DNA from: Anaerorhabdus furcosa | GTDB taxonomy: Bacteria > Bacillota_I > Bacilli_A > Erysipelotrichales > Erysipelotrichaceae | Direction: 5' to 3' | Assembly: GCF_900167375.1 (NCBI RefSeq) | Contig: NZ_FUWY01000002.1 | Span: forward strand, 186,001-250,000 | Length of the DNA: 64,000 nucleotides | Shown here: piece by piece, positions 8,803 to 16,999 of the stretch | How the letters are laid out: each line of letters opens with the position of its first letter | Position numbering within the stretch: position 1 is the first letter of the stretch | Notes under the pieces: model-generated | Databases searched by the model: none | Told to the model about the DNA's origin: nothing | What the model saw: only the letters and a program-made list of their open reading frames with translations | Program-made: the position numbers and the translations under genes

Positions 8803-8877
8803 GCCGATTTAGCACAGGGGCAGTGCAATTCATTCGTAATGAATAGGTCGTTGGTTCAAATCCGACAATCGGCACCA
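8803..8877 (+). tRNA. tRNA-Thr (anticodon CGU), CCA encoded
   Basis: Full cloverleaf: acceptor GCCGATT/AATCGGC, D stem GCAC/GTGC, anticodon stem ATTCA/TGAAT with loop TTCGTAA (anticodon CGT), five-base variable loop, T stem GTTGG/CCGAC, discriminator A and genomic CCA. It reads ACG codons. Confidence 0.96.
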
Positions 8878-8934: not shown

Positions 8935-9268
8935 AATGCTTTTGTTCAAGGGGATAACTAAAAATCACATTGTATATTTTGGATAACTGACACAATTTAT
9001 AAGTAGATGATGTTAATAATAGTTATTTCATTACTAATTTGCTTATGTAAGAGATAATTTTTATTTGAATCACTATTTTTAGTATTTAACTTAATGGATA
9101 ATACTAATAGTTATCAAGATTTTTAAAGGTTATAATGTCATAGTATTTTAAATAGATATTGTTTCTAAAATTACTTGATAATAGTATTTAGTTCGTTAAA
9201 AATAGTTAGAATTATTATTTTGCTAATATCACATTAAAATAAAATATTAAGAATTAAAGGAGAAAAGA
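8935..9268. other. AT-rich gene-free stretch before the recombinase
   Basis: No reading frame with a ribosome binding site and no RNA gene was seen. Base composition is clearly more AT-rich than the housekeeping genes to the left, in keeping with the neighbouring recombinase being acquired DNA. The recombinase ribosome binding site (AAAGGAGAAAAG) lies at the right end. Confidence 0.5.
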
Positions 9269-10105
9269 ATGAAATGGAACTGTATTGAGTATAGCCAATT
9301 TTTGACTGAAAATGAAAGAAGTGAATTAACAATAAAAAAGTACTGCGCAGATATTGAAAAATATATTAAGTTCATTACAGAAAGAAATGAATATATTACC
9401 AAAGAGAATGTAATTCTATTTAAACGAAGCTTACTTGGACTCTATGCAGTCAGTAGTGCAAATTCGATTATAATTGCAGTAAATGGCTATTTAAAATTTA
9501 TAGGATTATCAGACTATTGTGTTAGAGTTTATAAATTGCAGCGTTCAATATTCATGGATGATACAAAATCATTTGATAAGAACGATTATTACAAATTAAT
9601 AGAAAAATCGAAGAAAGATAAAAATGAAAAAATAACCGAAATCTTGTATACATTTGCATCAACTGGTATACGTGTGAGTGAACTAAGGTATATAACGGTT
9701 GAAAGTTTAAACCGAGGAAAAGTTCAAGTGAATTTAAAAGGGAAGATTAGAGTTATTATATTAACGAATAACTTAGTAAAACGTTTAAGAGTGTATTGTA
9801 AAAAATTTAATATATTAAAGGGCTCGATATTTGTAACGAGAAATGGAAGAAATATAGATAGAAGTAATTTATGGCGATCATTGAAAAAGCTTGCTAAAGA
9901 GGGTGGAGTTGCGTGTAGCAAGGTATTTCCGCATAACTTTCGACATCTTTTTGCTAAGATCTATTATGAAAAACAGAGAGATATCGTACGACTAGCTGAT
10001 TTTCTTGGACACAGTAGCTTAGAAACGACTCGTCTTTATACAAGTACTGGTAATATCAATGAATGTAGAGTAATGCTAGATGCAATATTTAAGTTTAGAG
10101 AATAA
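9269..10105 (+). CDS. Tyrosine recombinase / integrase
   Basis: Site-specific recombinase of 278 residues with an N-terminal SAM-like core-binding domain (about 1-90) and a catalytic domain. All catalytic residues are readable: Arg in TGIRVSEL, Lys in KGKIRV, His-x-x-Arg in PHNFRHLF, the second His in LGHSS and the nucleophile Tyr in TRLYTS. It is therefore probably active. The size suits a Xer/invertase-like recombinase rather than a large phage integrase with an AT-binding arm. It lies about 390 bases downstream of tRNA-Thr and just upstream of two inverted palindromes. Possible jobs are mobile-element integration or local DNA inversion; no excisionase or phage structural gene was found nearby. 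Confidence 0.9.
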   Translation: MKWNCIEYSQFLTENERSELTIKKYCADIEKYIKFITERNEYITKENVILFKRSLLGLYAVSSANSIIIAVNGYLKFIGLSDYCVRVYKLQRSIFMDDTKSFDKNDYYKLIEKSKKDKNEKITEILYTFASTGIRVSELRYITVESLNRGKVQVNLKGKIRVIILTNNLVKRLRVYCKKFNILKGSIFVTRNGRNIDRSNLWRSLKKLAKEGGVACSKVFPHNFRHLFAKIYYEKQRDIVRLADFLGHSSLETTRLYTSTGNINECRVMLDAIFKFRE

Positions 10106-10137
10106 AAATACAACATAATTATCATTATGTTGTATTT
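10106..10137. repeat. Palindrome IR-L, left member of an inverted pair
   Basis: Perfect 14-base arms AAATACAACATAAT / ATTATGTTGTATTT around a TATC centre, starting at the recombinase stop. The 26 bases at 10109-10134 match the reverse complement of 10326-10351 at 25 positions. It could serve as a recombination site, an operator, or a weak terminator for the recombinase. Confidence 0.85.
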
Positions 10138-10325
10138 ATAATAAATTCTTTGCTATGACATCTTAACTATTTATATTTTATCATATAAAATTGTAAAAAA
10201 ATAGTTTTCCAATTACAATTTAGATTGATTTAGTCACAAACTTAATAAAAAATGCAAATAAAAAATATCAGTGTTTAGAGAAATACTGATTTTAATCTTG
10301 ATTTTCTATATGTAGTTAATATTTG
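10138..10325. other. Intervening AT-rich segment between the inverted palindromes
   Basis: 188 bases without a coding frame. A possible promoter points left on the minus strand (TTGGAA, 17 bases, TTTATA, around 10180-10212). A hairpin ATCAGT/ACTGAT lies at about 10267-10290. If the segment inverted, the leftward promoter would face the small gene to the right. The promoter reading is weak. Confidence 0.4.
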
Positions 10326-10351
10326 TACAACATAATGATAATTATGTTGTT
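10326..10351. repeat. Palindrome IR-R, right member of the inverted pair
   Basis: Arms ACAACATAAT / ATTATGTTGT around GATA, the reverse complement of the TATC centre of IR-L. It ends immediately before the AAAGGAG ribosome binding site of the next gene, so any protein bound here, or the RNA hairpin, would affect that gene. Confidence 0.85.
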
Positions 10352-10367
10352 AAAGGAGTGATTGAAT

Positions 10368-10583
10368 ATGGGCGATGATTTACTAAATGAAATTAGGAGA
10401 ATTACTAATGTTTCTGTTATCTCTGATTTAAGAATTGTGAAGAATGAAATTAGCTTCAAAAAATGCAAGTCATTACTTTTAGATTATAATCCCAGTCAAT
10501 GGTCGTATGCAGTATCTTATATTGAAGAAAAGAAAATTGAATTTAAAAATATTGAAGAAGTAGATAAATGGCTTAATAAGTAG
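10368..10583 (+). CDS. Small protein of unknown function, 71 residues
   Basis: Not recognised. The product is hydrophilic, with Lys/Glu-rich helices at the C terminus and no signal peptide, membrane helix or cysteine cluster beyond a single Cys. The ATG is preceded by AAAGGAG at good spacing; a TTG two codons upstream is in frame but less likely. Its 5' region holds palindrome IR-R, and the recombinase is the next gene on the left. It ends in a bidirectional terminator shared with the XRE regulator. Confidence 0.6.
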   Translation: MGDDLLNEIRRITNVSVISDLRIVKNEISFKKCKSLLLDYNPSQWSYAVSYIEEKKIEFKNIEEVDKWLNK

Positions 10584-10600
10584 GGAATATGCAACATGAG

Positions 10601-10627
10601 AAAAGAAGTTTAAATTAAACTTCTTTT
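10601..10627. terminator. Bidirectional terminator between the small gene and the XRE gene
   Basis: AAAAGAAGTTTAA / TTAAACTTCTTTT, a near-perfect palindrome with A and T tails on both sides. The stop codon of the minus-strand XRE gene lies in the right arm. Confidence 0.85.
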
Positions 10628-10977
10628 TTAATGAATCCTTTGAGAAGTGAATCGGCGGATACATTGTATAATTTTGATAATGCAATTAAGTTGGTTGTGC
10701 TTGGATCTGAAGTTCCATTTTCCCATTTAGAAACAGCTTGTCGTGATACATTTAGTGATGAAGCAACATATTCTTGAGTCATATTATTTTGAACTCTAGC
10801 ATTTTTAAGAGCTTCGCCTAATGATTTATAGAAGTCAATGTCTTCTTTTTTTATCGATTTAGATTGTAAATACTTAATTAATGCACGGATAGTTAGAATT
10901 AGTATCGAGAATATCAATGCCCAAAATAAAATAAATAAAATAGTAAGTACTATTAAAATTGGAATACTAGCGTTCAT
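10615..10977 (-). CDS. Membrane-anchored XRE-family regulator (TM helix first, HTH last)
   Basis: Product of 120 residues. One strongly hydrophobic segment (residues about 6-34, ILIVLTILFILFWALIF core) is followed by a basic linker and a Cro/C1-type HTH (about 52-112: LKNARVQNNMTQEYVASSL, then VSRQAVSKWENG). The order is unusual, since membrane-linked XRE proteins commonly carry the HTH at the N terminus. GGAGGAATCGCTC precedes the chosen ATG; an in-frame start eight codons upstream has no better signal. It is divergent from the M56 protease gene across 172 bases. This is the arrangement of a protease and its regulator, with the XRE protein in the place usually held by BlaI. Confidence 0.8.
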   Translation of the reverse strand: MNASIPILIVLTILFILFWALIFSILILTIRALIKYLQSKSIKKEDIDFYKSLGEALKNARVQNNMTQEYVASSLNVSRQAVSKWENGTSDPSTTNLIALSKLYNVSADSLLKGFIKKEV

Positions 10978-11050
10978 GAGCGATTCCTCCTTTACAATCA
11001 AATTCTAACATACCTGGTAGGTTGCTTCTAGAAACTATTGCGCAATTATT

Positions 11051-16180: not shown

Positions 16181-16999
16181 TTGAGAAAGTTATTTTGTGA
16201 GATTTCACCGGTAACATACAAAATATCTATTACAAAAGAAAGAACATTGAGAAGTATGAAAGATCATATCCACAATGTTCTTTTTGCTCAGCAGAAATCC
16301 GAAGATCTTTTGCCAATTGTACTGAATAAACATAACTCATTAATTCGAAGAAGATTGGGCAATGTGAATATGGAACTGCAGGAAAATAAGTTTATTAATT
16401 TAAGTTTATCTACACCTAAAATAAATAAAATATGCATTAGACCAAATGAAGTGTTTTCATTTTGGAAACTAGTAGGCAATCCTGTAAAAAGAAAAGGGTA
16501 TAAAGAGGGATTAACAATTTCAAGTGGGAAAGCAACAAGTGGAATTGGGGGAGGAATGTGTCAATTTACAAATTTGATTCATTGGATGGTATTACATACA
16601 TCACTTACAATCATCGAACATCATCACCATGATGCATATGATTTGTTTCCTGATTTCAATCGTCAAATTCCTTTTGGAACAGGAACCTCAATTATGTATA
16701 ATTATCTTGATTATCGCTTTAAAAATGAAACAGATAAAACTTATCAAATTGTTGTTTATATGACTGATGAGTATCTATGTGGAGAAATGCGATGTGATAA
16801 GAAAGAGGATGTAAAGTATCATATTGTAATCGAAGATGAGTATTTTTCCAAAGAGAATGGTAATGTATATCGAAACGGAAAAGTGTATCGAAAGACTATC
16901 GATGTCTGTACAGGGAATTGCATAAAAAAAGAATGTATTCGAGTAAATCATGCAAAAGTGCTTTATGATACATCCAATCTTAAAATAAAAGAGAGCTGA
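16181..16999 (+). CDS. VanW family protein
   Basis: Product of 272 residues, recognised from the VanW core: RPNEVFSFWKLVGNP, then the glycine-rich SGIGGGMCQFTNLIHW, then the His-rich EHHHHDAYDLFP. The start is a TTG with GAGGTAGTAAG in front. VanW accompanies some vancomycin-resistance clusters, but its reaction is not established, and no ligase or dehydrogenase of such a cluster is nearby. There is no signal peptide, so cytoplasmic location is likely. The gene lies just behind a c-di-GMP phosphodiesterase gene. Its stop codon sits in a shared terminator hairpin. Confidence 0.85.
   Translation: MRKLFCEISPVTYKISITKERTLRSMKDHIHNVLFAQQKSEDLLPIVLNKHNSLIRRRLGNVNMELQENKFINLSLSTPKINKICIRPNEVFSFWKLVGNPVKRKGYKEGLTISSGKATSGIGGGMCQFTNLIHWMVLHTSLTIIEHHHHDAYDLFPDFNRQIPFGTGTSIMYNYLDYRFKNETDKTYQIVVYMTDEYLCGEMRCDKKEDVKYHIVIEDEYFSKENGNVYRNGKVYRKTIDVCTGNCIKKECIRVNHAKVLYDTSNLKIKES

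Follow-up and report, generated by a model that had tools for sequence, protein, structure and literature searches.

A probable self-contained invertible-promoter switch next to a tyrosine recombinase gene of Anaerorhabdus furcosa

Analysis of a 64,000-nucleotide stretch of Anaerorhabdus furcosa DNA, here called the window, pointed to a tyrosine recombinase gene followed by a short segment between two palindromic sites in inverted orientation and by a small gene behind the second site. As judged from the sequence and its relatives, this locus is very probably a self-contained invertible-promoter phase-variation switch, a kind of system that is already known. The recombinase-controlled invertible segment proposed by an earlier note on this DNA was supported by inverted site centres in 29 of 29 loci, by the restriction of the sites to a single recombinase clade, and by the opposite orientations of the segment in two orthologous loci (L122 and L152). 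New here are the exact anatomy of the sites, the rule that their centres follow, the layout of the ON and OFF states, the extension to the lineage of the window and a small protein as the target. The features of the locus, numbered from the first letter of the window, are as follows.

9256 to 9262, plus strand: ribosome-binding site AAAGGAG of the recombinase gene, read from the sequence.
9269 to 10105, plus strand: complete gene for a tyrosine recombinase of 278 aa, the presumed invertase of the switch (Pfam and alignment A1).
10110 to 10133, no strand: recombination site IR-L, ACAACATAA-TTATCA-TTATGTTGT, 4 bp past the recombinase stop codon.
10134 to 10326, no strand: putative invertible segment of 193 bp, counted from one site core to the other, deduced from the site layout and the inverted orthologous segments of L122 and L152.
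10170 to 10218, minus strand: candidate outward promoter region, at present leftward to IR-L (sequence reading and a weak scan match).
10266 to 10299, plus strand: A+T-rich terminator-like hairpin, TATCAGTGTTTAGAGAAATACTGATT and TTAATCTT, rightward at present and before IR-R, -9.0 kcal/mol.
10327 to 10350, no strand: recombination site IR-R, ACAACATAA-TGATAA-TTATGTTGT.
10352 to 10358, plus strand: ribosome-binding site AAAGGAG of the switched gene, read likewise.
10368 to 10583, plus strand: putative switched gene, 71 aa (73 aa from TTG at 10362), of an unnamed ISDL...W...Y family.
10595 to 10633, plus strand: inverted repeat (I7) with a T-rich right end, a likely terminator of the small gene, taken from the inverted-repeat listing.

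The placement of one palindrome right after the recombinase gene and of the other immediately 5' of the ribosome-binding site of the small gene, as described in the earlier note, was confirmed by these coordinates. The 26-mers compared there, TACAACATAATTATCATTATGTTGTA (10109-10134) and TACAACATAATGATAATTATGTTGTT (10326-10351), indeed matched at 25 of 26 positions in inverted and 23 of 26 in direct orientation, and their spacing, given as 188 bases, had to be corrected to 191 bp between the 26-mers and 193 bp between the 24-bp cores. The most informative split of both sites was 9-6-9, with identical and perfectly palindromic arms (ACAACATAA and TTATGTTGT) around 6-bp centres that are exact reverse complements of each other (TTATCA in IR-L and TGATAA in IR-R). 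Seven perfect 9-6-9 palindromes were observed in the window against 0.77 expected under a first-order Markov model; IR-L and IR-R were the sole matching 9-6-9 pair within 600 bp, and a matching palindrome pair was found in none of 60 Markov-1 random windows of equal composition. The five other perfect palindromes (at 16988, 18834, 46597, 47800 and 59671) were unpaired and are probably terminators. When up to three mismatches were allowed, the site occurred four times in the whole genome (2.4 Mb in 11 contigs), as the window pair and one paralogous inverted pair. The window locus has, like an inverton, a short segment between inverted repeats.

The recombinase of the window matched the Pfam Phage_integrase family (9.3e-23) plus a SAM-like N-terminal domain, and it contained the residues of those invariant columns of alignment A1 that fit the catalytic ones (R135, H222xxR225, H248 and Y257). 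The profile of A1 gave its best matches with the XerA/XerC-like entries 4a8e and 5hxy and with XerD (1a0p). The window protein fell below the curated equivalog cut-offs for XerA (128 against 220), XerD (95 against 330), XerC (90 against 335) and XerS (55 against 267), and it missed those of the FimB/FimE-type tyrosine DNA invertase subfamily (27 and 17 bits against cut-offs of 222 and 221 bits, respectively). By these membership tests it is classed neither as XerC, XerD, XerA or XerS nor as FimB or FimE.

Relatives were searched for in overlapping sets of 60, 273, 395, 316 and 392 genomes and also in GTDB contigs, IMG/VR, plasmids and phages. The recombinases retrieved split sharply on the A1 profile, with clade members scoring at least 344 bits and other homologues at most 286 bits; the exceptions were L115, truncated at the start of its contig, and L150, a shortened record. 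The upper-scoring recombinases formed one clade of 42 rows (tree support 99/95), of which 34 had enough downstream sequence: 29 showed the standard pair, two (L131 and L246) a non-palindromic inverted pair of 16-20 bp, and three (L021, L170 and L250) none. The eight other rows ended at contig or record ends, and the first site was still visible in four of them. A common layout was found in the 29 loci, namely the recombinase stop, a site, 123-387 bp, a second site and a gene. Outside the clade no convincing site pair was found, the weak matches there being without matching centres. The missing second site was looked for in G274, G068, G104 and G376 and not found. Clostridia members of the clade were known only from L030, L031 and plasmid records. 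A scan of IMG/VR with CAACATAA-N6-TTATGTTG returned 51 contigs, and these matches were considered mostly due to chance because only two of the contigs hold a recombinase, and a distant one (91 bits); a single-protein scan of viral contigs gave no match.

Some loci departed from the common layout. Three sites were present in L172 (G217) and L248 (Subdoligranulum, OY725846.1), one behind the recombinase and two, sharing a centre, before the gene; such loci could conceivably undergo either of two inversions, or a deletion of the DNA between the tandem sites. In L246, on the Pusillibacter plasmid pMM59_01, a second copy of the left repeat was observed, with an S-layer-domain gene downstream.

The paralogous pair in the same genome lies on contig C9, directly behind a recombinase 54% identical to that of the window; its sites have the same arms, are 215 bp apart and carry the centres TTCGCA and TGCGAA, which differ from those of the window and are still inverted. 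On comparison of the two sequences, the centre is changed in both sites in concert and the inversion is kept. A third paralogue of the switch clade, on contig C7 (L021, G000:C7:125853-126683; 43% identical), was without an inverted site pair and had an ATP-binding regulator-like gene directly 3', and it may be a switch whose segment has been lost, or a recombinase acting elsewhere.

Because the C9 sites share the arms of the window sites, the segment of the window might be flipped by another recombinase, either the C9 paralogue or XerC/XerD, the neighbouring gene having some other role. The arm motif TTATGTT, which we take to resemble the XerD half of dif, would be in agreement with this explanation. 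A recombinase that flips several loci is indeed found in C. difficile, where RecV does so (PMC5386303). However, the window recombinase is intact and has the invariant residues of its clade, and the first site of each of the 29 loci is found at the stop codon of the recombinase of that locus or no more than 35 bp from it. We therefore regard the action of another enzyme as unlikely, and we infer that the window recombinase itself acts on these sites.

The orientation of the sites, for which the evidence had so far been thin (two centre bases), was settled by the homologous loci, a comparison that the same note had suggested as a check. Within the 29 locus pairs, all confined to one recombinase clade, the 6-bp centres were exactly inverted in all 29; no pair had centres that were palindromic or identical in direct orientation. 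As many as 28 different centres were counted among the 29 pairs, and the centre of IR-L of one locus matched that of IR-R of another in 0 of 812 combinations. Conservation amounted to 0.07-0.13 bit at centre positions 2-5 and to 0.7-2 bits at most arm positions. Identity of the centres is needed for strand exchange by tyrosine recombinases such as XerCD, Cre and Flp. Centres that are free between loci and forced to match within a pair are therefore the mark of tyrosine-recombinase strand exchange between inverted sites, and the repeats of the window fit strand exchange in the inverted orientation only, as those of an inverton do.

These centres also bear on the explanation that IR-L and IR-R are two operators for a regulator, such as the neighbouring HTH protein or the recombinase itself in the role of a repressor, and that the segment does not invert. 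Perfect palindromes around a promoter region look operator-like, and an XRE-type HTH gene is located on the opposite strand at 10615-11001. Nevertheless, operators have no need for non-conserved centres to be reverse complements, yet all 29 pairs of centres are; moreover, the sites accompany a single recombinase clade, and the orthologous segments were found inverted. Operators, like hairpins, are disfavoured because neither predicts variable centres that are exact reverse complements in each pair, and we consider the operator explanation highly improbable.

Genome G138 harbours two closely related switches (L057 and L059) with identical arms, each before a different surface-type protein, and their centres TGTGAA and TGTGTA are one base apart. 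The centre may insulate same-arm switches in one genome, such as those of contigs C4 and C9 here and those of G138, where a one-base difference is maybe too little. The concerted change of paired centres may result from an exchange between unlike centres, the heteroduplex being made uniform by repair.

Two orientations of the segment were observed in the orthologous loci L122 and L152. Their flanks were collinear, with alignment scores of 205 on the recombinase side and 223 downstream, whereas the segment aligned, over nearly its full length, only when inverted (90 versus 23, the shuffled maximum being 25). L122 is identical to L123, the two coming from two metagenomes, and L152 comes from another metagenome. 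By these alignments, L122 and L152 are a natural pair of segment orientations over evolutionary time. When opposite orientations were sought in L128/L150 and L122/L123, the sequences were identical; the apparent inverted match of L062 and L173 (41 versus 30 shuffled) was A+T-rich and was not counted. The contigs of three metagenome-assembled genomes (G274, G068 and G104) end 56-136 bp past the recombinase stop, and the number of contig ends in the first 140 bp behind the recombinase was higher than expected (three versus 0.10, P = 1.4e-4, with contig counts rounded). Mixed orientations in a sample would break assemblies there, and other causes are possible. The contig ends from IMG/VR (L125, L129, L132 and L133) did not count as evidence, since a provirus may have been cut back to gene boundaries.

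The collinear flanks argue as well against the locus being the place where a small mobile element integrates or excises, with the recombinase as its integrase. A tRNA-Thr (CGT) gene is present at 8803-8877, 391 bp upstream of the recombinase gene, and no repeat resembling an att site was noticed in connection with it; in addition, a provirus collection includes many members of the clade. A phage integrase would be expected to have direct-repeat att sites around cargo, but here the sites are inverted, they enclose 193 bp without any gene, and they lie 3' of the recombinase rather than in the tRNA gene, so that with both orientations occurring between collinear flanks such an element is scarcely probable. 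That the palindromes are two transcription hairpins alike by chance, either terminators or 5'-UTR elements, is hardly credible, since, even if each can be folded as RNA and T-rich sequence stands behind a few sites, RNA needs no loops that are reverse complements locus by locus, and separate terminator-like hairpins lie inside many segments.

The activity of an invertible-promoter switch depends on a promoter that reaches the gene in one orientation, and promoters were called by a simple sigma-A scan with shuffled controls. Significant outward promoters near an IR were found at 23 of 56 segment ends, compared with 4 of 56 for the inward controls. As a rule, a segment had a single outward promoter. 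The outward promoter faced the recombinase (OFF) in 15 loci, including weakly the window, and the gene (ON) in six (L030, L065, L120, L127, L130 and L248); L067 had promoters at both ends, the stronger one toward the gene, and six further loci were ambiguous. A promoter reaching the gene in one orientation was clear in many relatives, and the promoter directions, together with L122 and L152, indicated that both orientations of an inverton occur among them.

In the window, the call of the left-pointing promoter of the earlier note was weak. The best leftward match of the scan in the window, TTGTAA-17-TACAAT (10218-10190), was weak (p = 0.05), and a competing match that points rightward and inward within the segment scored similarly (p = 0.03). 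Other readings of the minus strand were an extended -10 element, TATGATAAAAT (10185-10175), and TTTACA-16-TATAAA (10197-10170). The weak leftward promoter has the position and direction of the strong promoters in OFF-state relatives and, with this promoter leftward and the terminator ahead of the 71-aa gene, the window switch appears to be OFF. Terminator-like hairpins were also detected inside a number of other segments, their direction being too inconsistent across loci to serve as a test.

In the mechanism that we propose for the invertible-promoter switch, the recombinase would bind both palindromic sites, presumably as two monomers per site, cut where the 6-bp centre meets the arms and then swap strands. 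Since the centres match in no other than the inverted orientation, the exchange would turn the 193-bp segment around. One outward promoter would lie close to one end of the segment, and a terminator nearer to the opposite end. In the OFF form seen at present, the promoter would point away from the small gene, which would be preceded by the terminator; in the ON form produced by inversion, transcription from the promoter would cross IR-R and enter the ribosome-binding site and the small gene, whose transcription would be the output of the switch.

The start of the small gene is most likely the ATG at 10368. Its product had no match in Pfam, PHROGs, NCBIfam or PADLOC, and its AlphaFold model was poor (mean pLDDT 54, all helical) and was set aside. 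The family gathered in alignment A3 comprises proteins of about 75-90 aa with an ISDL motif and a conserved W and Y, and several copies per genome are present in some relatives. The small-protein profile matched in 20 of the 195 genomes searched, mostly not behind a switch; tblastn searches of plasmids with one relative and of phages with another gave no match. Relatives of the small protein are nevertheless located behind a switch in L169 and L120, whose recombinases are not sisters of that of the window. As to their state, L120 belongs to the ON class, L169 is possibly ON (p = 0.12), and the window is in the putative OFF state. The switch marks this family of small proteins as one worth switching on and off.

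The genes located 3' of IR-R were unrelated between loci. They encode vWA and pilin-like surface proteins, a BspA-type LRR protein, signal peptidase-like, ResIII/helicase-associated and DNA methyltransferase-like proteins, and regulators (a GGDEF response regulator, LytTR, TetR and BTAD). SPFH/Band 7 proteins carrying double zinc ribbons were observed behind the switch in L060 and L124, whose recombinases are not close relatives. We tentatively propose, giving it slightly less than even weight, that the recombinase and its segment constitute a portable bistable promoter placed before unrelated genes, with the 6-bp centre as a locus-specific address that blocks cross-recombination between same-arm switches. 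As part of the same tentative proposal, the module would have spread over the lineage of the window and Clostridia, and concerted evolution would keep the paired centres identical. The work also suggests a rule based on sequence only, i.e., a clade recombinase, a palindrome at its stop codon and an inverted partner with a reverse-complementary centre, which would detect phase-variable genes without reads and predict the switched gene and, at many loci, its present state. The centre rule, in turn, offers a testable explanation of the coexistence of several of these switches within a single cell.

The fim switch of E. coli (FimB/FimE) resembles the window switch in that an invertible promoter segment lies beside tyrosine recombinase genes and one orientation is ON. 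It differs in its recombinases, as the window protein reached 27 bits with the tyrosine-type DNA invertase model PRK09871, whose cut-off is 222, and in its repeats, which are of 9 bp and not 9-6-9 palindromes. XerA and XerD provide the closest solved structures and profiles and an 11-6-11-like site geometry; dif, in contrast, is one chromosomal site, whereas the window sites are a local inverted pair with a variable 6-bp centre.

Invertible promoters flipped by tyrosine recombinases are already known, as reported in the parts of the literature considered here, from RecV (PMC5386303) and from genome surveys (PMC5903667, PMC11892184). RecV, which acts on cwpV and flgB of C. difficile, likewise flips a short segment before a gene, the flg segment having 154 bp between inverted repeats of about 21 bp (PMC5386303, PMC5903667). 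However, RecV acts in trans, its several target loci differing in their repeats, and the flg switch works after transcription start, whereas the family of the window has one recombinase beside each segment and symmetric sites. Cdi7, the single switch of strain R20291 that has a neighbouring recombinase and is RecV-independent, may be nearer to the window switch than the RecV switches are.

Systems that are probably the closest come from the survey PMC11892184, in which the median number of invertons for the Bacillus-like phylum is zero. Its inverton group 139 comprises 33 invertons, 32 of them from Clostridia, and is most strongly linked to the tyrosine-type invertase group 35, a member of which is near nearly all of them; flipping was seen in reads. 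The examples given are from Clostridium sp. D5 (IR of 26 bp, 205 bp between) and Intestinimonas (IR of 14 bp, 227 bp between). These systems were found by read mapping and proximity, and the main text of PMC11892184 presents them without a palindromic 9-6-9 site, a matching centre or an ON/OFF promoter layout. They resemble the window switch in geometry, with a short segment beside a tyrosine recombinase and, as compared by geometry and description only, the group 139/group 35 systems in the parts of that survey considered here probably belong to the same family as the window switch.
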